NCBI GenBank assembly: GCA_021802545.1
Contig: JAJZRS010000002.1
Span: 1-64,000 of the forward strand
Source: Pseudomonadota bacterium
Lineage (GTDB): Bacteria; Pseudomonadota; Gammaproteobacteria; Burkholderiales; JABEVD01
Direction: 5' to 3'
DNA length: 64,000 nucleotides
Positions 2,675-40,504 of this stretch are shown one piece after another. Position numbers and translations under genes: made by a program. Each line of letters starts with the position of its first letter. Within the stretch, counting starts at the first letter, position 1. The notes under the pieces were generated by a model, which ran no database searches, was not told the origin of the DNA, and was given only the letters and a program-made list of their open reading frames with translations.

Positions 2675-3892
2675 TTAGGCAACCAACCTATCGGCCAAAG
2701 CCCGCTTGCGAAGCATCAGCCACACCACTGAAGACAAAAACATGAAGCTAACAGCTGAATAATAACTTTCCCCGCGGACAAAGAAATCGAGGATGAACAT
2801 CAGGAAACAGGATGTCATGAAAACGTCTTTGCTCTCCTCCAGGTTGCAGCTCATGGCCGTGGCATGAAGCCGCCTGAAATGCTTCCAGAAGTGGGCCAGA
2901 TAGGCCAACAAAACGGCAATCCCGATCAGGCCCAATTCTCCCGTCAACTTGAATGCCACTGCAGAGCCATCGTAAAGGTTCATGTCGGCGAGGTTGATTT
3001 CCGCCAGCCTCTCCATAAACACGCCTCTTTCGCCGATTATTCCAAATTGCTGGAAACCCACCCCCGTTCCATAAGTGTCCTTGAGATCAAGATACGCCCT
3101 TTCCATTCCGGAGAGATAACCCAATGCCGAATGGGCCTTCGTCTCTGGAGAAAGATCGATACGGGAAGTGAAATGCTTTGCGTTGCCAACCCCGAAAACG
3201 ATCATGACCAGCACCAAGGGTATGATCATGACGATGCGTCTCCAGGGTATCACCAGAAACATCACCAATACGGTTCCGGCAACCAGCGTCAGATTGGTGA
3301 CGATCGTCCCTATCAGAAATCCCACCAGAACCCACACGTACCGCATCCACTTGCCTGAAAAGTAGGCCATATACAGGAGAAATGGCGCAAATCCCAGGCC
3401 AAAATGGGAGGGTTCTGTGTAAAAAAACACGGGACGTCTCGTCAGATTTCCAAATGGCGAAAAATGGAAGAAATACGCGGAAGTCGAAATCAACAGTACG
3501 TAAAAGACGAATTTAATCGCATAGTGCGCACGGCGATTCGAAATGCCGCGAAACCAAAGATCAAATGCAAGCGCGCCCAGCATGAAGAACACCAGGAGCA
3601 AATAGGAAGATGCAAAGCGATTGAAGTCGAAAGTCGAATGCATCATGAAACTGTAGGTTCCGTTCACCAGAACCACTGTCAGCAATGCAAGAATGAACAG
3701 CATCGCCTTTGCATTTCCGCTCTTGCGCGAAGATCCAAGCGCGAAATGGATGGTGATCAACAGAATGCAGATCAGCGAAATGGCGAACCCCCCCACGGAA
3801 TTGGTGCCGAACATGAATGCCGTCACCTGGGGTAGGGTCACGATGGCGAGGAGCGTCAATCCTATCATCGTTGAGGGAAATGATATCCTCAT
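2675..3892 (-). CDS. Polytopic membrane protein, O-antigen polymerase/ligase-like (Wzy-like)
   Basis: 405 residues with roughly ten hydrophobic segments spread over the length and a polar loop at about residues 240-320 holding GVGFQQFG, a pattern common in Wzy/WaaL-type proteins. These act on undecaprenyl-linked oligosaccharides at the periplasmic face, either polymerising repeat units or transferring them. The ATG at 3892 has AGGAG 10 nt upstream, inside the end of the acyltransferase gene. Its position among glycosyltransferases supports a polymerase. Family assignment rests on topology and context, since these proteins diverge quickly. Confidence 0.65.
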   Translation of the reverse strand: MRISFPSTMIGLTLLAIVTLPQVTAFMFGTNSVGGFAISLICILLITIHFALGSSRKSGNAKAMLFILALLTVVLVNGTYSFMMHSTFDFNRFASSYLLLVFFMLGALAFDLWFRGISNRRAHYAIKFVFYVLLISTSAYFFHFSPFGNLTRRPVFFYTEPSHFGLGFAPFLLYMAYFSGKWMRYVWVLVGFLIGTIVTNLTLVAGTVLVMFLVIPWRRIVMIIPLVLVMIVFGVGNAKHFTSRIDLSPETKAHSALGYLSGMERAYLDLKDTYGTGVGFQQFGIIGERGVFMERLAEINLADMNLYDGSAVAFKLTGELGLIGIAVLLAYLAHFWKHFRRLHATAMSCNLEESKDVFMTSCFLMFILDFFVRGESYYSAVSFMFLSSVVWLMLRKRALADRLVA

Positions 3893-5245: not shown

Positions 5246-6364
5246 TTAGTCAGAAAGTTGCAATTTCGAATCAATTGTCCGCAGGTTTCGTTTTTCAAGC
5301 AGGCCACCCCATGCGCGATTAACCTGCCTTATTTGAGACGGGGAAAGCTCCCTTTCGTTTCGCACATGCCCTGACACCCTCTCCAGGTAAGATTCCATAG
5401 CTGCTGCCCCGACAGCGCTCAATTCGTCCAGCCCCAGATTGGAATAGACGCGGCGCAACGTACCGAACGGATTCTCTGCAAGTTCCTCATACTGTATCGA
5501 ATAAAACCTGCCCTCTGGAATACCCGCCGTCCCGTCTTGTATGGCCTGTTCATGCAGAACAAATGCTTCCAGTATGAAATTCTCAATCTCCGCAGTCGTG
5601 AATTGCTGGTAGCTATACAGGTCCAACATGGCATTCCACATTTTCACGTTGGAAGAAAACACATCATATGGATTTCGCTCCAATAATAGAAAACGGGCCT
5701 CGGGGAACATGTCAGTCAATGCCTTCAACCGGAAGCCGTGGGTCGGCGATTTCATGAGCAATGTCCTGTTTTCCTGAACAGACAGCAAGCGGATGAAATG
5801 CCTGAAACAGTCTTTCCATGCGTACTGTTCATCGCCTGACCATGAATCAAAATCGAGCAACTCCTTCACATCCTCTGCCAACGAAGGACACACCAGCATT
5901 TCATAAGGACTGCGAGCCCCCATGGCCAGCAAGGCAAATTCGTCCTCCTGTGGCGACGACACAGAGATCAGTATATGGTCCATCGGCCGCTTCACATACG
6001 ACTTTCCATGGTTTTTTATCGCATACGATTCAGTGAGCAGAAAACTCCATGGATTCATGCAGGCACAAGTGGACGGAAATCCGAAGCTGTCATCGCAGCT
6101 CATCAGTTCATGCAGAAAAGTGGTTCCCGAGCGCCAGAATCCCAGGATAAACAAGGGCGGCTTGATTTGTGCGGTTTTTATATTTCTGGCATGCAAGGAC
6201 TCCTGCAGGACGGCCATTGCAGAATAATTCACGCCAGTCATCCAGTTCCGGACCAAAGGCAACCGCCGGAGTTCATTGCCTTGTCTTTTTGCCCGACAGG
6301 CAATCCTCATCCAAGCTTTTGATGAAAGTTTCAGCTTCCCCTGGGGATATCTCGCCCCCCTCAC
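5246..6364 (-). CDS. Sulfotransferase family protein (PF13469-like)
   Basis: 372 residues. GFWRSGTTFLH at about residues 75-85 is the 5'-phosphosulfate-binding loop of PAPS-dependent sulfotransferases, and LLLERNPYDVFSSNVKMW in the middle is the 3'-phosphate-binding segment with its Arg and Ser. It would move sulfate from PAPS to a hydroxyl of the surface polysaccharide, or possibly a lipid-linked intermediate. The start is GTG (6364-6362), overlapping the TGA of the sulfatase-fold gene as GTGA. A second, unrelated-looking sulfotransferase lies at 10565-11515, and PAPS-supply genes at 26825-29330. Substrate unknown. Confidence 0.82.
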   Translation of the reverse strand: MRGARYPQGKLKLSSKAWMRIACRAKRQGNELRRLPLVRNWMTGVNYSAMAVLQESLHARNIKTAQIKPPLFILGFWRSGTTFLHELMSCDDSFGFPSTCACMNPWSFLLTESYAIKNHGKSYVKRPMDHILISVSSPQEDEFALLAMGARSPYEMLVCPSLAEDVKELLDFDSWSGDEQYAWKDCFRHFIRLLSVQENRTLLMKSPTHGFRLKALTDMFPEARFLLLERNPYDVFSSNVKMWNAMLDLYSYQQFTTAEIENFILEAFVLHEQAIQDGTAGIPEGRFYSIQYEELAENPFGTLRRVYSNLGLDELSAVGAAAMESYLERVSGHVRNERELSPSQIRQVNRAWGGLLEKRNLRTIDSKLQLSD

Positions 6365-8316
6365 GGCTTTCTCGACAATATCTTATTATTTGCCATACTA
6401 ATTCTTTGCTGAATCATCGATTGCAAATGCAACGCCAACTCGGGTTGAACTTTCGACAAATCATGCTGCTCGTCCGGATCAAATCGAATATTATACAATT
6501 CGCCCCTCCTTGTCGAAAGGTCATAGATGTACTTGTTCGCCCCCTCCATGACAGCGACTGTTCCCTTCGCAAGCGGCAGGAATGAACTATTCAATTCGAA
6601 ATTCATGGAAAATTTTGGACTGGACGCGACTCCTTGCTTGCCTTGAAAATATTTCACAAGCGATTCGCCCTCCGACCAGCCTGGCTTCGGAATTCCGACA
6701 AGGTCCAAAACTGTTGGCAATATATCCACCTGTTCGGCATTTTCCTCGATGACCTTTCCGCTTTCCTGCCCTGGAAGCCGGATGATTAGTGGGATATGTA
6801 TCAGTCCCTGGTACAACTGCGGACCCGTATGGCCATGAAAACCGTGAGAAAACGATTCGCCATGATCCGCGGTAATAATGACGATGGCATGATCCAAGTA
6901 TCCCTTCTTACGAAGCAAATCGAGAAACTCGCCCACCTCCCGGTCAGCATAACGAACGCATTCATCATAGCGTAGCCGGTATTTGTCTATCATTCCTTGC
7001 TGTTTAGCAGAATAGAAACCTTCTATCTTGAAGTCTCTTCTGGAAACAAGCTCTTTCGCATTCAGGTATCTGAACTTTTCCGGATTGGGTGGCAGATAAG
7101 GGTCGTGGGGAGGCAGAATATGCGCCCACATGAAGACCGGACGATCCTGAGGTGCATCCACAAGCATGCGCATTGCCATACTGTAAACATCCTCGGCTGG
7201 CCACGGATAGTCATTTCCCATCCATATCTGGTCAAAACTAGATATCCCAGGGAGGAGAGAATGCAGAATTCCGTCAAAATTTGACCCCTCAAAAACCAAT
7301 TTTGCGAGTTGTCTTGCGATGACGCCTTTAACCGGAGGCGGGGCATCGTCATCATAGTCCGCATATGTGCCATGGTGAAGAGGGGCGGCCCACGGATTGG
7401 ATGAGATGGTCAGATTGTAATAACCCAGCTTGTGCAGTTCATGGGCGATGTTTTCTCTTCGATCACGCCCATGCAGTTGTCCGGCCCAAAACACTCTGTG
7501 CGACCAAGGATATTTACCGGTTTCAATCGTAGTGGTGGTCGGCGTTGTGAAATTCGAGTTTGCATAAAAATGGTTGAATACGTATGCCTGTCTTGAGAAG
7601 CGCGTCAGCTGGGGAGTTGTATCCAAGCGATATCCATAAAGGGACATGTCTTCCGCGCTCAAGGCATCGACCGAGAGCAAAAAAACGTTCGGAAGGCTGC
7701 CGCGACCTGACTCGTGGGGCAGCACCGACCTGTTCCCAAAGATATGGAGCCTGGGGCCGCGTACAATCGCAACTGTTGCCGAACAAATAACCAGCAACAC
7801 GGAAAACCAGAAGGGAATTTTCATGCGCCCGGAAATCGCGCCCCTCAAGCCCGCCACTTCGTAATAACCCACCAACAACAGAAAGGCGAAAAAGAAGAAT
7901 AAAACCGAAATCAATTTCGCATAGTTAAAGGCCTCAAACAACTCCTTTTTCGTCAGGATCCCAATCCATTGAATGCCAAACTGGGTCAATACGTTTGCAA
8001 TAAGAAAACAGAGCGGCGCAAGGGCCACGACTGCAGCAGCATGGAATGCGTGCTTCTTCAGAAAACCGAAACGGGAAATGACAAACCAGAACGCAATCGA
8101 GCCGAGCAGCCAGCTCACGGCAAGCAAAGCAAAAAAGAGGACCACTAGCGAACTGTCGACAGCGACCTCGGGCCAGGTCATATACATCAGCAAACCATCA
8201 ATTTGACCGATCAGCCCCAACGGAACATAGACCAGCAACATCAATGGCAAGAGGATACGCAATATCTCTCTTGCGAAAGCTACAGTACTGCCGTATGCGT
8301 TAACCCACTGACTCAT
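6361..8316 (-). CDS. Membrane-anchored sulfatase/alkaline-phosphatase superfamily enzyme
   Basis: 651 residues: about five transmembrane segments in residues 18-185, then a periplasmic sulfatase-fold domain. Metal ligands are visible at LLSVDA (D217), in ITADHGESFSHG and in the following HGHTG. The nucleophile region reads NFTTPTTTTIETGKYP (T257 to P270). Against the sulfatase pattern CxPxRxxxxTG, the Cys and Arg are both Thr, so formylglycine chemistry is not possible. Thr nucleophiles occur in LtaS-type phosphoglycerol and phosphoethanolamine transferases of this superfamily. It may therefore add or remove a phosphodiester or other group on the exported glycan. It overlaps the sulfotransferase gene by 4 nt. 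Confidence 0.75.
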   Translation of the reverse strand: MSQWVNAYGSTVAFAREILRILLPLMLLVYVPLGLIGQIDGLLMYMTWPEVAVDSSLVVLFFALLAVSWLLGSIAFWFVISRFGFLKKHAFHAAAVVALAPLCFLIANVLTQFGIQWIGILTKKELFEAFNYAKLISVLFFFFAFLLLVGYYEVAGLRGAISGRMKIPFWFSVLLVICSATVAIVRGPRLHIFGNRSVLPHESGRGSLPNVFLLSVDALSAEDMSLYGYRLDTTPQLTRFSRQAYVFNHFYANSNFTTPTTTTIETGKYPWSHRVFWAGQLHGRDRRENIAHELHKLGYYNLTISSNPWAAPLHHGTYADYDDDAPPPVKGVIARQLAKLVFEGSNFDGILHSLLPGISSFDQIWMGNDYPWPAEDVYSMAMRMLVDAPQDRPVFMWAHILPPHDPYLPPNPEKFRYLNAKELVSRRDFKIEGFYSAKQQGMIDKYRLRYDECVRYADREVGEFLDLLRKKGYLDHAIVIITADHGESFSHGFHGHTGPQLYQGLIHIPLIIRLPGQESGKVIEENAEQVDILPTVLDLVGIPKPGWSEGESLVKYFQGKQGVASSPKFSMNFELNSSFLPLAKGTVAVMEGANKYIYDLSTRRGELYNIRFDPDEQHDLSKVQPELALHLQSMIQQRISMANNKILSRKP

Positions 8317-9542: not shown

Positions 9543-10589
9543 TTATTGAACAGTCTCATAGCGCCTCATATCGATGCAATATTTCCTGCGAAGCAATCGA
9601 GACACCATCAAGCGTAGCTGCCATAGTATTCCACTCTTGGCGGCTTTCTCCCTAACCTTCTTCTGGACAGACAGGACCCCATATTTGTTCTCGACTCTTC
9701 TTCTAGCCAACATGTACGGTATATAAATCGCATTTACAACATCAGCAAGATTAGGAATATCATAGTGATCGACGCCAAGCTCATATTTATGAGCTGAAAT
9801 CTTTTTCAAACCATGAAAATGAAAACATATCAGCCTATTGCCGTTCAAAGTAACCGTCTCATGGCCTTCGCCCACGGTCTTGCCGCCGACATTCCAAGGC
9901 CCAACGTTTAAATTTTCATGACAAGACTCATACACATCATCGAACTGGATCTTCCATTGATCCAAGTATTTCTGATCCCCATACTTACCATTTTCGATCC
10001 GATCATAACACCACTCAATACAGTCTTCATACCATTTCCGCAGGAGTCGAAAAGAAACCTCAGAAGCCTGAACGCTAACGAACCCGGCATTAAACTTTCC
10101 GCAAACATCAAGATGTTGCTGGCTATGGGGGAATAAGTGCGGGGTAATGATTGTGGAGCAATCCGTGATCCGCGGGTGGGCGAAGTCGTTGAAGAAATAC
10201 ATATCAGCATCGACATACGCGGCATTCTCGACCCTGACAACTTCAAAAAGAAACCGAAGAATGGCCGATTTACACGTGAAATAGTATTCGACCTTCGATC
10301 GATTCAACTTCGCTTGCCTGAGTTCCGGAAAATGAGCCTCTATCGTCTCGAGTTTCACCGGCTTTAGACGGTCTAGCGACAACGATTCCAGCTTGTCGTA
10401 TGTGTCACTATCCATGCAGACGACCCATAGCACCGACTTTTTCACGTTTTTCAGGAGTGATTCATAAAGCGTCAGGCCAGTTGCTATGTAATTGATGTCG
10501 AATAAAGTACAAAAATTGGATTCTTCTACGCGATCATCAGCAATGACATCGTTCAGTTCATCTTTCATTGTTTGTTTGAGCTTTTCCAT
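9543..10589 (-). CDS. Nucleotide-diphospho-sugar transferase, GT8-like (GT-A fold)
   Basis: 348 residues. FCTLFDINYIATGLTLYESL resembles the N-terminal GT-A strand/helix of family 8 enzymes. AAYVDADMYFF carries a DxD (D127, D129) for metal and nucleotide-sugar binding. FNAGFVSVQ and CFHFHGLKK are the later conserved blocks (the last like the HxxGxxKPW region). It probably adds a sugar in repeat-unit assembly. The basic C-terminus (about 295-340) may bind membrane. The ATG at 10589 has AGGAAG upstream and overlaps the sulfotransferase gene by 25 nt. Confidence 0.68.
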   Translation of the reverse strand: MEKLKQTMKDELNDVIADDRVEESNFCTLFDINYIATGLTLYESLLKNVKKSVLWVVCMDSDTYDKLESLSLDRLKPVKLETIEAHFPELRQAKLNRSKVEYYFTCKSAILRFLFEVVRVENAAYVDADMYFFNDFAHPRITDCSTIITPHLFPHSQQHLDVCGKFNAGFVSVQASEVSFRLLRKWYEDCIEWCYDRIENGKYGDQKYLDQWKIQFDDVYESCHENLNVGPWNVGGKTVGEGHETVTLNGNRLICFHFHGLKKISAHKYELGVDHYDIPNLADVVNAIYIPYMLARRRVENKYGVLSVQKKVREKAAKSGILWQLRLMVSRLLRRKYCIDMRRYETVQ

Positions 10590-11515
10590 GAATCCAGCTT
10601 CCTACCCACCAAATCCTCCAGCTTGCCTATATCCTCACTAAAATGGTCGAGCAGTCTCTGCTTGAAGTCAGGATCGAGCGGCATTCGCACCTCCTTGACG
10701 ACATTCAACGCGTTCAAATATTCGCCCAGGCCGCCTTGAATCCCCAGCGTTCGCTTGAACGACTTGCTCAAAGAAAGCAAGGGCGAGGGAATTTTTCCCA
10801 GCATCCTGCGCAAGCCAACCGATTTTGCCCGTTTGTTTTCATTGATTCGCTGAAATTCGAAGTCGGGCCGCTGCTCCAAATTCAAAAATTCGAGCACCTT
10901 ATCGAATTCTTGGCGAGTCTGATTCACGAATTCGTCGAAAAAGATGATATGGATTCTATCTCTTTCGATCGTGTCAAATAGCCTTCCAATTTGAATCGAG
11001 TACATGCCAATATCGCTATACATCAACAATTTAGCATCCGGACAATGCTTCGGCAAGAACACCCCATTTCGCCTGCTTTCTTGCTTCTCCCAGGCAAGCT
11101 GAAAATTTTCAATATCCTCATAGCCTTCAAAAACCAGTTGACTATGAAACGAATAAATCATGTCGACAGGATTCCGCAGCATCACGATGATCCTTGATTC
11201 ATTGTTATATTCGTATATGTTCTTGATTGCCACGTCGGAATATAGATAAAACACCGAGGCATCGCACAGCACTTTCTGGTTCTCGCGAGGCGAGCTAAAA
11301 ATGGATTCGTACTTGTCGAAAGTATCGAATTTTGACTCTGCTTTCAGTCCGGGGAAATCATCGGCGAAATAGTACGGCTCCTTGGGTTGAGACATCATGA
11401 CTTGCGGATGATGCCTCAAATATTCGCTCAACGCAGTAGTGCCGCACTTTGGCGCACCTGCAATAAATGTATTCACTTTTCTCATGTCTGCAGGAATTAT
11501 CCGTAAACTTTGCAC
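10565..11515 (-). CDS. PAPS-dependent sulfotransferase (PF00685-like)
   Basis: 316 residues from a GTG at 11515, which has AAAGAAG upstream; an ATG at 11485 beginning MRKVNTFIAGAPKCGTTALS is an alternative. APKCGTTAL is the 5'-phosphosulfate-binding loop with its Lys, as in heparan-type N-deacetylase/sulfotransferases. SRIIVMLRNPVDMIYSFHSQ is the 3'-phosphate-binding strand-helix with Arg and Ser. It transfers sulfate from PAPS to a carbohydrate. It differs in family flavour from the sulfotransferase at 5246-6364, which suggests two sulfation positions in the polymer. Acceptor unknown. Confidence 0.85.
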   Translation of the reverse strand: MQSLRIIPADMRKVNTFIAGAPKCGTTALSEYLRHHPQVMMSQPKEPYYFADDFPGLKAESKFDTFDKYESIFSSPRENQKVLCDASVFYLYSDVAIKNIYEYNNESRIIVMLRNPVDMIYSFHSQLVFEGYEDIENFQLAWEKQESRRNGVFLPKHCPDAKLLMYSDIGMYSIQIGRLFDTIERDRIHIIFFDEFVNQTRQEFDKVLEFLNLEQRPDFEFQRINENKRAKSVGLRRMLGKIPSPLLSLSKSFKRTLGIQGGLGEYLNALNVVKEVRMPLDPDFKQRLLDHFSEDIGKLEDLVGRKLDSWKSSNKQ

Positions 11516-11536: not shown

Positions 11537-13198
11537 TCAAAGACAAACCAAGTCGTGGTGCCCTCGGTCGATCATTTCAGTGAATGCCCTATATATCTCA
11601 TGGTTTTCGATGGGCTCTGCAAGCTCAAATGCACCATTTATCTTCGAGTAGGCCTCAGCCCTGTCAACATCATCATACCTCGACAATCCGGGCAAGAGCG
11701 GCGTATCCGCGAACACATATTTGTTGAACCAGAGAAAGGCGATTTTTGCACTCAAAATCTGCTCTGGTGTCAGGTCCGGAAGATTGTCGATGTCATCCAG
11801 AAGCGCCTTATATTCGGTTACGCTTCTTGCCTGATAATTGGTTCCGCTTTCCTCATGCTGACAGGACGAGGCCGCTATGACCTTGACTCCCAGGCAAGGC
11901 GCCTCTATGCCCACCGTCCCATGGGAAGTAATGATCACTTTCGCCAATTCGAAAATCGCCGAGTTATGAACCTTCTTTTCCAGATAGATGAATCCGGCGC
12001 CCAGCGAGCCATTTATTTCCTCGACCACCTCTTTAACAGTGACTCCGCATGGGTAAAGCGGCTCGGAAGGATGCGGCTTAACGTACACTTCCTCGACCTT
12101 GCTTCTTTCCGCCAACATGATCAAGGTTTCCCTCAGCCATACGTAGTTATCCGAATAGTTCTGCCAAAGTGGGTAGCGTACGGCGTCGACAAAGGCATGT
12201 GTCATTATAAAAATCTTTCCTTTCCCGTCAGTCCCGAAAGATTCCTTGAATTGATCTACCGTATTGATTTCATTGTTGGCATAAACGAAGCCCACATCGA
12301 TCTGGTTTGCGTCTCTGGCCCCCATCCTGTTACCGAAGGCAACCTGGAACTCCTGATCGATTTCCTGTTCCGTTTTGTTTTTCTTGATCAGTGCCTCGTA
12401 TTCCTTCCTGTAATACTGCACCTTGTAGATGAACTTCTTGTCCGCAGGATTTGATGCGATGCTTATCGGCTTGGTATATGCGGTGGTCCATATCCTGATA
12501 TTCCGATCCAGCGATGCGGCCGCCTTGATGACCAGCCCGAATTTTGCATAGACATCGTGAGTCATCACGATGTCCGTCACATCGTTGACATTGATGATTT
12601 CACGATACCGGTAATAGCGATACAGAGAGTTATAGATCAGCGCAAAATACATCAGATCCGGCTTTCTTGCGGTCGGCCTGCTGGTCAGGCGGAGATATTC
12701 GTCGTAGACAAGGTCTCCAATTTCCTGTCCGCCGACTTCCAGGCTGATTCCCTTGTCGATACGATAATTGGCCGACAGGCTGAACGACAATGTTCCCGTG
12801 ATGGCCCTGATATGATTCTTCAGATCGAGAAACCGGTATACGCCGACAAATCGTGAAATATCGAAGGCATGCGCAATGGTCTGCACCAAGCATGTCTCGC
12901 CGTATTCGGTCAACGCAAAGGCGGACGTATGATTTTTGCTTCCCAGGAGCATGCGAATCAGACAAGAATTCAGATTCGCCGTAGGATGCTCCCAAAGCAT
13001 CTCAACCATGATCTTCTTTTCTTCTTCGGCGCCTTCAGGATGGGTATTGCGCTCGACATATCGCCTGACGTTGTCCAAATTCAACGAAGAATACAAAGGC
13101 CTGTTTCGCAGAACCATTCTTCTAGCCTTAAGAAACCCTAAACCAGTATGCTGAAGAAGCAGCGACAATGTTTGACGCATCAAAAAAGCCCGATACAA
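11537..13198 (-). CDS. Capsule polysaccharide biosynthesis-type protein (GT-B-like), unassigned
   Basis: 553 residues with no clear membrane segments. The C-terminal part has VYVKPHPSEP (about residue 385) and VIITSHGTVGIEAPCLGVKVIA (about 435-456). This KxHP plus SxxGxE-xPxxG arrangement is found in KpsC/KpsS, CDP-glycerol transferase and sialyltransferase-like GT-B enzymes. The N-terminal 250 residues are not recognisable. It could be the transferase for the CMP-activated nonulosonic acid made by the genes to its right, but that is inference from position only. The gene lies between the SDR and the sulfotransferase with short gaps. Confidence 0.55.
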   Translation of the reverse strand: MYRAFLMRQTLSLLLQHTGLGFLKARRMVLRNRPLYSSLNLDNVRRYVERNTHPEGAEEEKKIMVEMLWEHPTANLNSCLIRMLLGSKNHTSAFALTEYGETCLVQTIAHAFDISRFVGVYRFLDLKNHIRAITGTLSFSLSANYRIDKGISLEVGGQEIGDLVYDEYLRLTSRPTARKPDLMYFALIYNSLYRYYRYREIINVNDVTDIVMTHDVYAKFGLVIKAAASLDRNIRIWTTAYTKPISIASNPADKKFIYKVQYYRKEYEALIKKNKTEQEIDQEFQVAFGNRMGARDANQIDVGFVYANNEINTVDQFKESFGTDGKGKIFIMTHAFVDAVRYPLWQNYSDNYVWLRETLIMLAERSKVEEVYVKPHPSEPLYPCGVTVKEVVEEINGSLGAGFIYLEKKVHNSAIFELAKVIITSHGTVGIEAPCLGVKVIAASSCQHEESGTNYQARSVTEYKALLDDIDNLPDLTPEQILSAKIAFLWFNKYVFADTPLLPGLSRYDDVDRAEAYSKINGAFELAEPIENHEIYRAFTEMIDRGHHDLVCL

Positions 13199-26824: not shown

Positions 26825-27628
26825 TCAACTCTTAAAATGGAAGGAAAAATTCCCCGTCCCCAAGAATTCAGGATTGTGAAGATCGGGTTTGTTGTAGCGC
26901 AAACGGTTCCCTGAAAGGTCCAATACCGCGCCGCCGGCCTCTTCGGCGACGCACTGGGCAGCAGCAGTATCCCATTCCATGGTCGGCGCGAGCCTGGGAT
27001 ACAAATCCGCGCTGCCATCTGCCAGAAGGCAAAATTTCAGGGAGCTACCCATGGATACCACTTCATATTCACCGAGTTGCTCAAGAAATGCGTCGGTCTT
27101 TTCCCCCCTGTGGCTGCGGCTTGCAACCACCCTGATCTTGCCGGCCTCGAATCTCGATGCGGAGATTCCCGTAGTTTTTCCATCCTTGGTAAGGTAAGCG
27201 CCACACCCCCTGGCGGCATGATATAACCTACCGATCGCCGGCGCATATACGACTCCAAGAATTGGCTGTCCATCTTCAACAAGCGCAATGTTGACAGTAA
27301 ATTCCCCGTTACGGCTTATGAATTCCTTCGTTCCGTCCAGAGGGTCCACCAGCCAGAAAAGACGCCAGTCGCGCCGGCGCTCAAAAGGAATTTCCGCGAG
27401 TTCTTCAGACAAAACCGGCCAATCTTGTCGCAGCTTTTCCAACCCTTGAGAGATGACGTTTTGCGATGCCAAATCGGCAGCCGTAAGTGGTGAAGAATCC
27501 TGCTTGAATTGCACCCCAGGTTCTTCTGATTCGTAGATCGACATGATTTTGTCGCCAGCTTCTCTTGCAATGGCAACCACCTGAGTCAGCAGTTGTGCTA
27601 ATTCATCTATTGTGACCACGTCAGTCAT
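26825..27628 (-). CDS. cysQ: 3'(2'),5'-bisphosphate nucleotidase CysQ (copy 1)
   Basis: Hydrolyses 3'-phosphoadenosine 5'-phosphate (PAP), the by-product of sulfotransferases, relieving product inhibition. 267 residues of the inositol monophosphatase family: LSEELAE and [25 protein letters not shown] give the metal-binding Glu and DPLDGT, and [19 protein letters not shown] is the second family signature. It overlaps the 3' end of the APS kinase fusion by 8 nt, which links PAP removal to PAPS production. A close paralogue lies at 39680-40504. Confidence 0.9.
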
Positions 27629-29330
27629 GGAGAGCTTTCAGTATGCTATCAACGCAGGCTTCCGGGCTCCGGCCAACCGTTTCGAGCCTTATTTCGGGAG
27701 ACTCCGGAACCTGATAGGGGCTGTCGATTCCGGTAAAATTCTTCAAATCGCCTTTTCTTGCCTTAGCGTAGAGGCCTTTTGTGTCCCTTCTCTCGCACTC
27801 TTCGAATGGCGTATCGACAAAGATCTCCCAAAACTCGCCTTCATCGAAGAGTGTTCTCGCGAACTCCCTCTCCGATCGAAACGGGCTCAAGAATGAAACA
27901 ATCACCATCAATCCTGCATCGACCATCAGGCGCGCCACTTCCGCGACACGCCTGATGTTTTCCACGCGATCGGTTTCCGTGAAACCCAGATCTCGGTTCA
28001 ATCCATGTCTTACATTATCGCCATCGAGAATGTAGGAATGAAGCCCCATGGAAAATAGACGCTTCTCCAGCAAATTCGCAATGGTGGATTTACCCGATCC
28101 GGAAAGGCCGGTGAACCAGAGGCAACAAGGCTTCTGTTGTTTAAGTTCCGCACGCGCCTTTTTGTCTATTGAAAGACCTTGCCAATGGATATTGGATGCG
28201 CGCCTTAATGCGAAATCGATCATGCCAACAGCCAAAAGATCATGGCTGTTCTTATCAAGCAACAAAAACCGGCCCAACGACTTGTTCTTCTTGTAGGATT
28301 CAAAAGGCAACGGTTTGGCGACGGAAATATTCACAATGCCTATGTCATTCGCATCAAGCTTCTTTGCGGCAAGGTGCGCCCCAGAATCAAGGTCAACGAC
28401 ATATTTGACTGCAGTGAGGGTGGCATTCGCTTCAGCCGTATCCATTCTGATCAGATAGGGTCTTCCAGGCACCAAGCTGGAGAGGCAAATCACTTTCGCC
28501 TCAAACTGGTCCGAGAGCTCGATGGGATCGAGGCTGGTTGAAATCACATTGCCGTCAGTCACAGCTATGTCGTCTTCAAAGCCAAGGGTGACTGATTCCC
28601 CCGCAACTGCCCTCTCCAACTCGTCTTGCACTGCCGAAATGGATTTAACCCGGGTTTCGACACCGCCCGGAGCAATACGCACCCTATCACCAATGGATAT
28701 CTTGCCGCTCAACACCATCCCGCCACAGCCGCTTCCGCCATCCCTGCTTGCCGTTGTGACCTTCATCCTGAACGCGTGGCTCTCGGCTGTGGCAGCATCC
28801 CCGGCACACTCCAGGTAACTCATCAAGGTGGGTCCAGAATACCAGTGTGAAAACTCACTGGGTTTGACCAGATTGTCTCCCTCGACTGTCGAGACAGGAA
28901 TTCCCATGCATGAAGCAAATTTCAACTCTTCAGCAAGCCTGGAGCAGTCCTCAAAAATCCGTCGAAAAATTTGCTCTTCCCAGTCGACAAGCTCCATATT
29001 GGCGATCAAAAATATCACATGGTCAACACCGGCATGGGCAACGAATCTTATGCGGCCTGCCATATCACCAGTCAGCCCATGGCACGCATCAAGTGGAACA
29101 ACTGCGAGATCGCAAGTTGATAGCGCCAGCATGCGTACATGACCACTCTGCTTGGCAATGTCCGCTATTGCAACCTGCCTGTTCTGCGTGGAAAAAAGTT
29201 GATAGCTGACTCCCCATTGTGAAACGAACTCCCCTCTATCCGCTTGGTGTGAATGAGCCACCAGACTATCTACAATTGCTGACCCAGCAAAATTTGTATT
29301 GTCATTAACAACAAGGTGCAAAATATTCAT
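27621..29330 (-). CDS. cysC: APS kinase (CysC) fused to a degenerate CysN-like GTPase domain
   Basis: 569 residues. Residues 400-569 are a complete adenylylsulfate kinase: Walker [10 protein letters not shown] (408-416), [15 protein letters not shown] (437-450) and [16 protein letters not shown]. It makes PAPS from APS. Residues 1-380 follow the CysN layout, with the [12 protein letters not shown] strand (71-82) and the later beta-barrel domains, but the GTPase motifs are lost: no P-loop near residue 10, DTPGH replaced by DIAKQ at 57-61, and NKMD replaced by ANME at 110-113. No cysD is visible in the window. The GTPase half is probably structural or regulatory. It is followed by cysQ in the same operon. 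Confidence 0.85.
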
Positions 29331-32600: not shown

Positions 32601-34028
32601 TCATTTTCTGCCATAAACGTCGTCGAAACGCACAATGTCATCCTCACCCAGATATTCCCCGCTCTGCACCTCGATCATCACAAGATCGGTAATTCCAGGA
32701 TTGGCAAGTCGATGTTTATGCCCCGCAGAAATATATGTCGACTCATTCGTCCTAATGAGCATATTTTTGTCGTCATTGACAATGCTGGCCATACCCGAGA
32801 CGACGATCCAATGTTCGCTTCTGTGAAAATGCATCTGCAGGGAGAGCGATGCGCCAGGCTTCACTACAATTCGCTTGATCTTGAAGTTCTGACCTTCCTC
32901 CAAAACCGTGTAGGTCCCCCATGGGCGATGTACGGTACGATGCAGCTTATGGCTCTCGTGCCCCATGTACTTCAACTGCGCCACCACCTTCCTTACATCC
33001 TGAGCATGATCCTTGTCTGCGACGAGAAGTGCATCAGGGGTGTCGATTATCAACAGATTCTCTACCCCCACCGCCGCAACCATTCTGCTTTCGCTCTGAA
33101 TATATGTGTCGGAGACATCGAAAAGCAGTGCTTCGCCCATCACACGATTACCCACTTCATCCGGAGGTACCAGATCGCTCATTGCATTCCATGAGCCAAT
33201 ATCGCTCCACCCGAATTCGGATGTCACCACGGCGACATTATTCGATTTTTCCAACACGGCATAATCGAAAGAATCCTCGGGAATTGCCGCAAAGGATTCA
33301 GAATCGATTTCGCCCATGGAACCATTCCTAACCAGCGCCTCGAAACACTTCAATGCAGTGCTGTGAATATGCGGAGCATGGCGCTCGAATTCTTCTATGA
33401 CTTTACCGGCCGAGAAACAGAAAATCCCCGAATTCCAGAAAAATTTTCCCGACTCGACATATTCAGCAGCTTTCTCCCTCGCGGGCTTTTCCACAAACCG
33501 CTTCACCAGCTTCGATCCTGCATCATCGCAAGGTTCGCCGCCTTCGATATAGCCAAATCCGGTCTCTGGGAAACATGGCACGATGCCAAATGTAACCAGC
33601 TTGCCCAACATGGCAAGCCTCGCGGCCCGTTCGACGGCCAGGCCAAAAGCCTCGAAGTCCTCGATCAGGTGATCGGCAGGCATGGCCAATACAACTGTTT
33701 CCGGTCCATGTTTCTCCGATACGTCGAGTGCGCCAAGCAGGATGGCAGCAGCAGTATTGCGTCCAAACGGTTCGAGAAGATAGGTATCCGACACACCGAC
33801 ATACCGCTTCCCGACATTCAGGAATTCATCGTGGCTTTTGAAATAATATTCACGGTTGGTAACCGTCAATATTTCAGAAACTGACTTGATCGACGCAGCC
33901 CTACAAAAAGTCTTGAAGAGCAGGCTCTCGCCATCCGGAAGCTTCATAAAAGGTTTTGGATGAGACTCTCTGGATACCGGCCAAAGACGGGAGCCGGATC
34001 CGCCGGATAGAATGAGCGGGATGATCAT
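32601..34028 (-). CDS. manC: Mannose-1-phosphate guanylyltransferase / mannose-6-phosphate isomerase (copy 1)
   Basis: Makes GDP-mannose, and in the two-domain form also interconverts fructose-6-P and mannose-6-P. 475 residues: the N-terminal nucleotidyltransferase starts [20 protein letters not shown] with the GxGxRLWP loop and FVEKP, and the C-terminal cupin (from about residue 345) has [20 protein letters not shown] and [18 protein letters not shown] close paralogue of equal length is at 38197-39624. No Shine-Dalgarno sequence precedes the ATG. Instead the heptamer motif CCTAACGCC stands 3 nt before it. Confidence 0.92.
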
Positions 34029-38196: not shown

Positions 38197-39624
38197 TCAT
38201 TTCCGCCCATAGACGTCACTGAAACGAACGATGTCATCCTCACCGAGATATTCCCCGCTCTGCACCTCGATCATGACAAGATCGGCGATGCCGGGATTGG
38301 AAAGGCGATGCTTGTGTCCGGCCGGGATATAGGTCGACTCGTTCGTCCTGACCAGCAAGGTTTTGTCATCGTTCACCACTTCAGCGGCACCCGAAACCAC
38401 GATCCAGTGCTCACTCCTGTAGTAATGCATCTGAAGGGACAGGGAAGCACCAGGTTTCACCACGATGCGTTTGATCTTGAAGTTCTGTCCATCCTCAAGC
38501 ACGGTATAGGTTCCCCAGGGGCGATGCACTGTACGGTGCAGCTTGTGGCTTTCATGCCCCATGCTCTTCAATTGCCCCACTATCTTTTTAACATCCTGCG
38601 CATGGTTCCGGTCAGCCACGAGCAACGCATCCGTCGTGTCGACTATCAAAAGATTTTCCACGCCTATTGCAGCAACAAGCCTTCCCTCGCTCTGCACATA
38701 GGTGTTTGAGACGTCCTGAAGCAATGCTTCGCCGACGACACGGTTTCCCTCATGGTCCGGGGCAACAAGATCGCTCAGCGCATTCCAGGAACCGATATCG
38801 CTCCAACCGAAACTGGCCGGCACAACAGCCACATTTCTCGATTTCTCAAGCACCGCATAATCGAAAGAATCCTCAGGAACGTCGGAAAATGTTTCGGGAT
38901 CTATCTCGGCCATCGCACCTTCACGTCCAGTCGACTCCCAGCATTTCAAAGTAGCACGATAGATTTCGAGCGAATGTTTTTCGAACTCTTCAATCGCCTT
39001 CCCTGCAGAAAAGCAGAATATGCCCGAATTCCAGAGGTAGTTCCCGGATTCGACATATTCAGCCGCCTTCTCGCCGGAAGGTTTTTCAACAAACCGGCTC
39101 ACCCGCCTCGAACCCTCATCGTCACAGGATTCACCCATTTCAATGTAGCCGAATCCAGTCTCAGGAGAATCCGGAACGATGCCGAAAGTAACCAACATTC
39201 CCGTCTTTGCAAGATTTGCCGCCTGTTCAACCGCATGCTTGAATGACTCCATATCCTCGATCAAGTGATCGGCCGGCATCGCCAACATCAGTGAATCATC
39301 GCCATGTCTTGATGAAACGTCAAACGCTCCAAGCAAAATGGCAGCAGCCGTATTCCTGCCGAAGGGTTCCAGAAGAAACGTGTCGCATATTCTTGGATGC
39401 GCCTTCTTGGTTTCCTGGTACTCATCCCTGCTCTTGAAATAATACTCACGGTTCGTGATCGTCAGTATCTCGGAAATTTCGCCCAGCGATGCGGCCCTTG
39501 AGAACGTCTTTTGCAGCAAGCTTTTTCCATCAGGCAGCTTCATGAATGGCTTGGGGTGCGATTCGCGGGAAACCGGCCACAGACGAGACCCGGAACCGCC
39601 AGAAAGAATGAAGGGTATAAGCAT
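38197..39624 (-). CDS. manC: Mannose-1-phosphate guanylyltransferase / mannose-6-phosphate isomerase (copy 2)
   Basis: 475 residues, same length and architecture as the copy at 32601-34028: nucleotidyltransferase domain with [20 protein letters not shown], then a cupin domain with [20 protein letters not shown] and [17 protein letters not shown]. The two proteins are nearly identical over the last ~130 residues and differ more in the middle. The ATG at 39624 is directly preceded by the TTAGGCG repeat array, leaving no recognisable Shine-Dalgarno site. Translation may therefore depend on coupling from cysQ copy 2, whose stop lies 55 nt upstream, or be inefficient. Confidence 0.92.
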   Translation of the reverse strand: MLIPFILSGGSGSRLWPVSRESHPKPFMKLPDGKSLLQKTFSRAASLGEISEILTITNREYYFKSRDEYQETKKAHPRICDTFLLEPFGRNTAAAILLGAFDVSSRHGDDSLMLAMPADHLIEDMESFKHAVEQAANLAKTGMLVTFGIVPDSPETGFGYIEMGESCDDEGSRRVSRFVEKPSGEKAAEYVESGNYLWNSGIFCFSAGKAIEEFEKHSLEIYRATLKCWESTGREGAMAEIDPETFSDVPEDSFDYAVLEKSRNVAVVPASFGWSDIGSWNALSDLVAPDHEGNRVVGEALLQDVSNTYVQSEGRLVAAIGVENLLIVDTTDALLVADRNHAQDVKKIVGQLKSMGHESHKLHRTVHRPWGTYTVLEDGQNFKIKRIVVKPGASLSLQMHYYRSEHWIVVSGAAEVVNDDKTLLVRTNESTYIPAGHKHRLSNPGIADLVMIEVQSGEYLGEDDIVRFSDVYGRK

Positions 39625-39630
39625 GAGGCG

Positions 39631-39693
39631 TTAGGCGTTAGGCGTTAGGCGTTAGGCGTTAGGCGTTAGGCGTTAGGCGTTAGGCGTTAGGCG
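39631..39693. repeat. Nine perfect tandem copies of the heptamer TTAGGCG
   Basis: Read directly: nine uninterrupted copies, plus one imperfect unit (TGAGGCG, 39624-39630) that touches the start codon of manC copy 2. The array contains the last codons and the TAA of cysQ copy 2 (T-P-N-A-stop are encoded by repeat) and fills the whole space before manC. Such perfect short tandem repeats are prone to slipped-strand copy-number change. There are no spacers, so it is not a CRISPR array. Confidence 0.97.
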
Positions 39694-40504
39694 TATTATA
39701 TACGAGTCTTGCAACTGGCTCACTGCCGTAAGCCATAAACTCCGGATTATGAAGATCAATCTTATTATACTGCAGCCTATTTCCCAAAAGATCAACGACT
39801 TGTCCTCCAGCCTCCTCGACGATGCATTGCGCTGCCGCACTATCCCATTCCATGGTGGTGGAAAGTCTCGGATAAATATCGGCAGAGCCTTCTGCGATCA
39901 TGCAGAATTTGAGGGAGCTTCCCATGGAAACTGCCTCAAACTCGCCTATCTTTTCGAGAAAGGCATCGAGCTTCTCCCCCCTGTGCGACCTGCTCGCAAC
40001 GACCCTGATTTTTGCGCCGCACCGCTGCGCAACGGCCAATCTTTCAACTTTTCCGTCCATCTCGCAAAAAGCCCCTATTCCCCTTGCAGCATAGTAGATT
40101 TTTCCGATCGCAGGCGCATAGATAACGCCCAGAATGGGAAAGCGCTCTTCGATCAGGGCGATGTTGATCGTGAATTCGCCTGTTTTCCCGAGAAATTCCT
40201 TGGTGCCATCCAATGGATCGACAAGCCAGTATCTTTTCCAATGCCGCCTTTCATCGAATGAAACAGCTGCAGATTCTTCCGAAAGTATCGGCCAGTGCGG
40301 TTCTATTCCTTCCAACTCCCTGACGATGATCCGGTGGGATGCGAGATCGGCCTCGGTAAGCGGTGAGCCGTCTCCTTTCCTGAAAGTGCCAATAATCCCA
40401 TCGCGATAGATCTCCATAACCTTCTGCCCTGCGGATCTGGCGATGGAAGCCACCATGGGCAACATCCTAGAAAGGCTCAATGATTCATTCGAAAGCGAAC
40501 CCAT
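39680..40504 (-). CDS. cysQ: 3'(2'),5'-bisphosphate nucleotidase CysQ (copy 2)
   Basis: 274 residues, paralogue of the copy at 26825-27628 with the same signatures: [32 protein letters not shown] and TTMEWDSAAAQCIVEEAGGQ. It removes PAP left by sulfotransferases. The final four residues and the stop codon lie inside the TTAGGCG array, so the original C-terminus may have been altered by repeat expansion. GGAAGAG precedes the ATG at 40504. It is placed between rfbD and manC copy 2, far from the APS kinase fusion. Confidence 0.88.
   Translation of the reverse strand: MGSLSNESLSLSRMLPMVASIARSAGQKVMEIYRDGIIGTFRKGDGSPLTEADLASHRIIVRELEGIEPHWPILSEESAAVSFDERRHWKRYWLVDPLDGTKEFLGKTGEFTINIALIEERFPILGVIYAPAIGKIYYAARGIGAFCEMDGKVERLAVAQRCGAKIRVVASRSHRGEKLDAFLEKIGEFEAVSMGSSLKFCMIAEGSADIYPRLSTTMEWDSAAAQCIVEEAGGQVVDLLGNRLQYNKIDLHNPEFMAYGSEPVARLVYNTPNA

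Follow-up and report, generated by a model that had tools for sequence, protein, structure and literature searches.

A CysNC-type fusion with a decayed GTPase half and an intact APS kinase in a bacterial polysaccharide locus

Described relatives and the fusion in this locus

CysN is reported to derive from archaeal EF-1A by transfer, with NodQ being a CysN-CysC fusion (PMC1780047, PMC4342817). The protein described here shares domain order, ancestry and an intact kinase half with the CysNC of Mycobacterium tuberculosis and with rhizobial NodQ; NodQ also serves the sulfation of an exported molecule, according to PMC1780047, and, when isolated, the CysC domain of the M. tuberculosis protein is reported to be an active APS kinase (PMC4373884). 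In contrast with these proteins, the present fusion has lost G1, G2, G3 and G4, is not adjoined by a cysD or nodP gene, and has as its best NCBIfam match NF004035, with 572.5 bits, i.e. below the cut-off of 715. Stand-alone CysC provides a second comparison: the kinase part passes the TIGR00455 and NF003013 models, and APS kinase activity is probably the only chemistry remaining to the fusion, but the protein bears about 373 extra residues, a partly decayed CysN.

Pseudo-GTPases in general have likewise lost G motifs while partly keeping the fold. In the ATP sulfurylase of Penicillium chrysogenum the APS kinase-like domain is catalytically dead. In that enzyme, too, sulfate-activation domains are fused and one of them has changed its role; there, however, the altered domain is the kinase-like one, reported to confer PAPS-mediated allosteric control (PMC4220642), whereas here it is the GTPase half that appears to be dead. 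Within the open-licence literature, we found neither a pseudo-GTPase in the sulfate-activation family nor a description of a degenerate CysNC. A 2007 survey of translational GTPases is described as using intact G1, G3 and G4 motifs as a filter (PMC1780047), so that cases such as the present one would have been filtered out there.

The window analysed, i.e. the whole stretch of 64,000 nucleotides at positions 1 to 64,000 of contig JAJZRS010000002.1 (assembly GCA_021802545.1), encodes the fusion on its minus strand in a single frame that begins with ATG and has no internal stops (Table 1). PF22594 matches residues 275-371 and PF01583 residues 400-549; the first 373 residues are CysN-derived and the last 196 comprise a linker and a complete APS kinase. 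To judge from these matches, the 569-residue protein is a CysNC (NodQ-type) fusion. A frameshift or a wrongly chosen start concealing a P-loop was ruled out, because an in-frame stop lies three codons 5' of the ATG and the upstream gene ends 34 bases ahead of it, leaving no room for a lost front piece.

Table 1. Positions of the fusion, its segments and associated sulfate genes in the window
Feature	Position	Strand	Basis
Whole CysNC-type fusion (569 aa), GTPase half decayed, APS kinase intact	27621..29330	minus	ORF, family matches, motif columns
Residues 1-68, eroded nucleotide-binding half of G domain (G1, G2, G3 lost)	29127..29330	minus	alignment, pLDDT
Residues 69-182, remainder of G domain with fold kept, ANME in place of G4	28785..29126	minus	alignment, model
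Residues 183-262, domain II barrel, diverged	28545..28784	minus	weak PF03144 match, alignment
Residues 263-373, domain III barrel, fairly conserved	28212..28544	minus	PF22594 (6e-21), alignment
Residues 374-569 with stop codon, linker plus intact APS kinase (CysC)	27621..28211	minus	PF01583, TIGR00455, NF003013 over cut-off
CysQ, 3'(2'),5'-bisphosphate nucleotidase	26825..27628	minus	TIGR01331, 312.6 bits (cut-off 228.8)
Second CysQ	39680..40504	minus	TIGR01331, 300.2 bits (cut-off 228.8)
Sulfotransferase	10565..11515	minus	PF00685 and PF13469 over cut-off
Sulfotransferase	5246..6364	minus	PF13469 (1.6e-30)

The sequence-only reading of this DNA described a CysN-derived pseudo-GTPase, all of its visible GTPase motifs gone, fused to an intact APS kinase, and the motif columns and family matches bear out that description. 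In the alignment, the G1 column holds no P-loop, DIAKQ (residues 57-61) occupies the DTPGH column of G3 and ANME (110-113) the NKMD column of G4; the G2/switch I stretch is lost as well. The strand that was noted as well kept between the lost motifs corresponds to the normal strand after G3. Relative to L034, an intact fusion of the same genus that served as the identity reference, only 67 of the 103 positions of the nucleotide-binding part are alignable. Of the 54 invariant positions in that part, 12 are kept. A Pfam profile search gave no match to PF00009 (GTP_EFTU) up to an E-value of 0.1, and the score on the CysN model TIGR02034 (258.4 bits) is under its cut-off (336.1). The protein is thus predicted to be unable to bind GTP.

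Over the nucleotide-binding part, the second half of the G domain, domain II, domain III and the kinase, the window protein keeps, respectively, 15%, 44%, 44%, 54% and 79% of the L034 residues; the near intact fusions L056, L036 and L055 keep 80-86%, 62-67%, 57-59%, 59-68% and 72-76%, and five more distant intact fusions keep down to 73%, 51%, 48%, 39% and 56%. The part that is most conserved in working enzymes is therefore the most eroded here. The AlphaFold model has block pLDDT values of 28-56 over residues 1-70, with most of the rest being good; when an intact control was modelled from the same 41 rows, its first 60 residues reached 70-84. The top match of the model, by both Foldseek and VIA-align, is CysN (1zun_B; Z 37.1, rmsd 2.7, 352 residues), with residues 1-70 being modelled at low confidence. 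The proposal that the alteration is not random decay holds in part: the nucleotide-binding part does look decayed, whereas 44-54% of the reference residues survive in the remainder of the G domain and in the two barrels.

The C-terminal end had been read as a normal CysC, and its sequence signature agrees. The kinase half matches PF01583 (E 1e-66, 224.1 bits, cut-off 21.1) and TIGR00455 (246.5 bits, cut-off 138.7), and is also over the cut-off of NF003013; it has both the Walker A sequence GLSGSGKST and DGDN, and keeps 44 of 45 invariant positions, the single change being I to L. On these grounds the APS kinase of the fusion is predicted to be active. The loss of the front-half motifs, along with another CysC in the genome, could suggest that the entire gene is decaying, kinase included; the near-complete set of invariant kinase positions, a short kinase tip branch (0.23) and a tight gene order, in which the fusion gene and cysQ overlap by 8 bases, make such a pseudogene very improbable.

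Motif loss and cysD among related fusions

Using pieces of the window protein or of its relatives as queries, 150 distinct CysNC fusions were classified. The named loci are the best 80 of at least 500 confirmed matches and not a random sample, so the counts give no frequency. Dropped before the count of 150 were L054 (the same protein as L034), further copies of places already represented, and stand-alone CysC proteins; L049 and L021 (G165, CysN and CysC split); L050, which has no CysC; the contig-edge fragments L019 (G131) and L204 (G639); L211/L231 of G750, where the frame is apparently broken and cysD is present; and L024, L025 and L028, in which the kinase half is decayed. In L231 (10098-12790) the CysNC frame is apparently broken before domain II, with an intact cysD adjoining, which may be an assembly error or a pseudogene. 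L024 (1321-3099, G111), L025 (1324-3099, G068) and L028 (1348-3105, G170) are mirror-image fusions: their kinase half has no Walker A, their CysN half aligns along its full length and cysD adjoins; G1, G3 and G4 are intact in L024 and L025.

Among the matches listed, G1, G3 and G4 are all kept in 135 of the 150 fusions, and cysD adjoins every one of the 134 intact fusions that could be judged, the remaining intact one (L116) lying at a contig edge. Against that background, the motif loss in the window protein exceeds chance variation. The 15 flagged fusions comprise 12 without a neighbouring cysD, two with one (L066 and L088) and one, L085, that is cut by a contig end. Relatives of the kind that the sequence-only reading had proposed to collect thus exist: all three boxes are lost in six of the 150 rows, the window included, and, among the matches listed, G3 is lost in all 12 fusions without a neighbouring cysD. 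Those 12 are the window fusion, for which an ORF search of the 64-kb window gave no CysD-like ORF, L035 (G008), L037 (G023), L038 (G022), L039 (G040), L080 (Sulfurimicrobium), L198 (G747), L199 (G610), L200 (G667), L230 (G681), L232 (G647) and L238 (G600). In G647, which has CysD on another contig, only about 600 bases follow the fusion on its downstream side before the contig stops, such that the absence of cysD covers the upstream side only.

L088 (9134-10954, from a Rhodoferax MAG) is a true exception to the association of cysD absence with motif loss: its G3 reads VTPRH beside an intact cysD, with G1, G2 and G4 kept. Loss of cysD is therefore not the sole road to motif loss. L066 (8289-10984, from a Chromatiaceae MAG) has lost G3 in its CysN half while its CysC half is intact, and the adjoining CysD is itself decayed, with GKES for GKDS, the RRDEEKSRAKER stretch missing and a TIGR02039 score of 162 bits (cut-off 397). 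The CysD motif in this group, with its state being judged by eye from the sequences, is YS-x-GKDS; SGGKDS is absent from all 98 proteins that cover the region. Within the same genus, the G007 fusion is intact and has cysD, and the G008 fusion, which has no adjoining cysD, is even more reduced, its G domain having shrunk to about 100 aligned residues; in the G022-type group nearly all of domain II is lost (alignable over 10 of 82 positions).

In a tree based on domain III and the kinase (150 rows, built by a quick method), the minimum number of changes is nine for motif loss and seven for cysD absence. Seven independent pairs on supported branches gave, on average, 5.7 differences in the same direction, 0 in the opposite direction and 1.3 pairs with no difference (sign test over the seven pairs, median p 0.031, range 0.031-0.0625), the numbers being small. 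With L066 scored as lacking cysD, since its CysD is decayed, this rose to 6.7 pairs (p 0.0156, range 0.0156-0.0312); a smaller, earlier tree of 96 rows gave four of five pairs (p 0.125). Loss of the switch motifs has arisen several times in related bacteria, nearly always without an adjoining cysD. As to the order of events, we infer that cysD was lost before, or together with, the motifs.

Constraint on the CysN-derived half

Synonymous change between the window fusion and its nearest relatives is saturated; protein branch lengths, together with dN/dS values from close pairs of another affected lineage, were therefore used. Branch lengths were taken on terminal branches of a fixed topology with 105 intact tips, leaving out six contig-edge or long-branch rows and, on account of rooting, the stem lengths of the window-G008 pair. 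The window tip branch is 4.87 for the G domain and 0.23 for the kinase, a ratio of 21; among the intact tips this ratio has a median of 1.25 and reaches at most 3.63. The corresponding ratio is 5.6 for domain II (intact median 1.4, maximum 4.63) and 2.2 for domain III (intact median 0.99, maximum 4.41). In less eroded cases the G domain ratio is 5.6 (L232), 2.6 (L238) and 1.25 (L088), the last two being within the intact range. Three pairs in the Sulfuricellaceae-type group, a sister lineage, gave dN/dS values of 0.45-0.49 for the G domain (bootstrap limits 0.26-0.85), 0.15-0.20 for domain III and 0.09-0.12 for the kinase; three close intact pairs gave 0.02-0.12 for the G domain, and a fourth was saturated. 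The G domain is thus strongly relaxed but, at least in the Sulfuricellaceae-type group, not free. The argument that the open frame reflects selection on the altered domain finds no support, given how much faster the G domain changes than the kinase; moreover, an open frame is no evidence of front-half function, because any stop or frameshift in that half would cost the protein its downstream kinase as well.

These values bear on whether the GTP-blind CysN half keeps, or has gained, a structural or regulatory role, e.g. in oligomerisation, kinase stability or the docking of an ATP sulfurylase or sulfotransferase. The 44%, 44% and 54% of reference residues kept over residues 69-373, a region modelled with good confidence, are more than a free vestige might keep (near intact fusions have 57-68%); the domain III tip ratio lies inside the intact range, with a dN/dS of 0.15-0.20 in the sister lineage, and the G domain dN/dS in that lineage, with its limits, is under 1. 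However, the domain II/kinase ratio of the window exceeds that of every one of the 105 intact tips, the G domain of G008 and domain II of the G022-type group have been reduced to the remnants described above, and a stand-alone CysC is present in many of the genomes collected. On balance we regard such a role as unlikely, if by no means negligible. A broader proposal, that loss of CysD has repeatedly made the CysN half into a GTP-independent structural or regulatory platform, with the kinase directing APS from Sat or another CysDN to PAPS for cell-surface sulfation, is likewise put forward only tentatively.

APS supply and predicted sulfation of the polysaccharide

The proposed polysaccharide setting of the window fusion was confirmed: in addition to the sulfotransferase genes (Table 1), the window has GDP-mannose dehydratase and epimerase-type genes, ManC, an ABC exporter, Wzz, a Wza-type export protein and glycosyltransferases, and the polysaccharide of the locus is predicted to be sulfated. 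A sulfatase-family protein of 651 aa (6361-8316) directly adjoins the sulfotransferase gene at 5246-6364. ManC-like genes are present at 32601-34028 and 38197-39624, the second copy in the locus being assigned by eye from the beginning of its sequence. Between the Wzz and Wza-type genes lies an ORF for a four-helix bundle (TIGR02436, 35361-35756). The polysaccharide-locus ORFs at 11537-13198, 9543-10589 and 2675-3892 gave no Pfam match up to an E-value of 0.001.

The idea that decayed fusions cluster in polysaccharide loci applies to the window, G008 and G647, as judged by family matches, but not, as judged by eye, to G023 and G600; the surroundings of the G040 fusion look polysaccharide-like by eye, from ORF starts only. 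PF13469 sulfotransferases were found in nine of 11 affected genomes, G040 and G600 being those in which the search gave none. The G023 and G600 loci, and the G040 and G600 genomes, led us to reject the rule that every decayed fusion lies in a polysaccharide or sulfation locus; the link of decayed fusions to sulfation is common, not universal.

In its own genome, the fusion is accompanied by a single cysD match, at C37, which adjoins an intact cysN and lies next to cysH. With an intact cysD elsewhere in the genome and the CysN fold partly kept, the fusion and the housekeeping CysD might still form an ATP sulfurylase in trans, without GTP use. We consider this highly improbable, since that cysD adjoins its own intact cysN, which shares only 31% identity with the window protein, and since whole-genome searches of five affected genomes (G022, G600, G610, G667 and G681) gave no CysD match. 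The suggestion that the altered domain acts as a scaffold for CysD is unsupported for related reasons: no cysD adjoins the fusion, and the only one found in the genome adjoins its own intact cysN.

The genome also carries a Sat-type ATP sulfurylase and a separate CysC APS kinase (L051); given the latter, the fusion is not needed merely for any PAPS. The CysH of this genome scores above the cut-off of the APS-reductase model TIGR02055 (260 bits against 235.3) but not of the PAPS-reductase model TIGR02057, such that cysteine synthesis may, and likely does, proceed without PAPS; the same CysH is also over the cut-offs of two models that carry the PAPS reductase name, NF002537 and TIGR00434.

Whole-genome searches of 11 affected genomes revealed another ATP sulfurylase in every one: CysD in six (G000, G008, G023, G040, G647, G747), Sat (PF01747) in nine (G000, G008, G022, G600, G610, G647, G667, G681, G747) and both in four, although the Sat may be dissimilatory. 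The same searches of genomes with intact fusions revealed a second CysD and no Sat in G007, and only the fusion-adjoining CysD in G010. Because G007 keeps an intact fusion despite its second CysD, redundancy alone is no cause of decay; ATP sulfurylase redundancy looks to be necessary, not sufficient, for decay of the GTPase half.

The explanation that we consider likely is that the cysD partner has been lost and that the fusion now functions as an APS kinase giving PAPS for polysaccharide sulfation, its GTPase half being largely a vestige. Starting from a complete cysD-cysNC pair, the lineage would have lost cysD and hence any use for a GTPase that drives CysD. APS would then be supplied by the other ATP sulfurylases of the cell (the housekeeping CysDN and Sat) and converted by the kinase of the fusion to PAPS, which the sulfotransferases encoded in the polysaccharide locus would use, with CysQ, the gene of which overlaps that of the fusion, clearing the by-product PAP. 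The GTPase half would be largely vestigial and without GTP hydrolysis, its frame kept open by the downstream kinase.

The results have implications for annotation, as homology could lead such a fusion, which probably makes no APS, to be labelled a bifunctional sulfate adenylyltransferase/kinase. More broadly, these fusions represent a naturally repeated experiment, in which a partner gene is gone and the energy-coupling half has decayed where it stands, with the fused kinase left intact; comparison thus offers a test of whether the CysN GTPase depends on CysD and the kinase does not.
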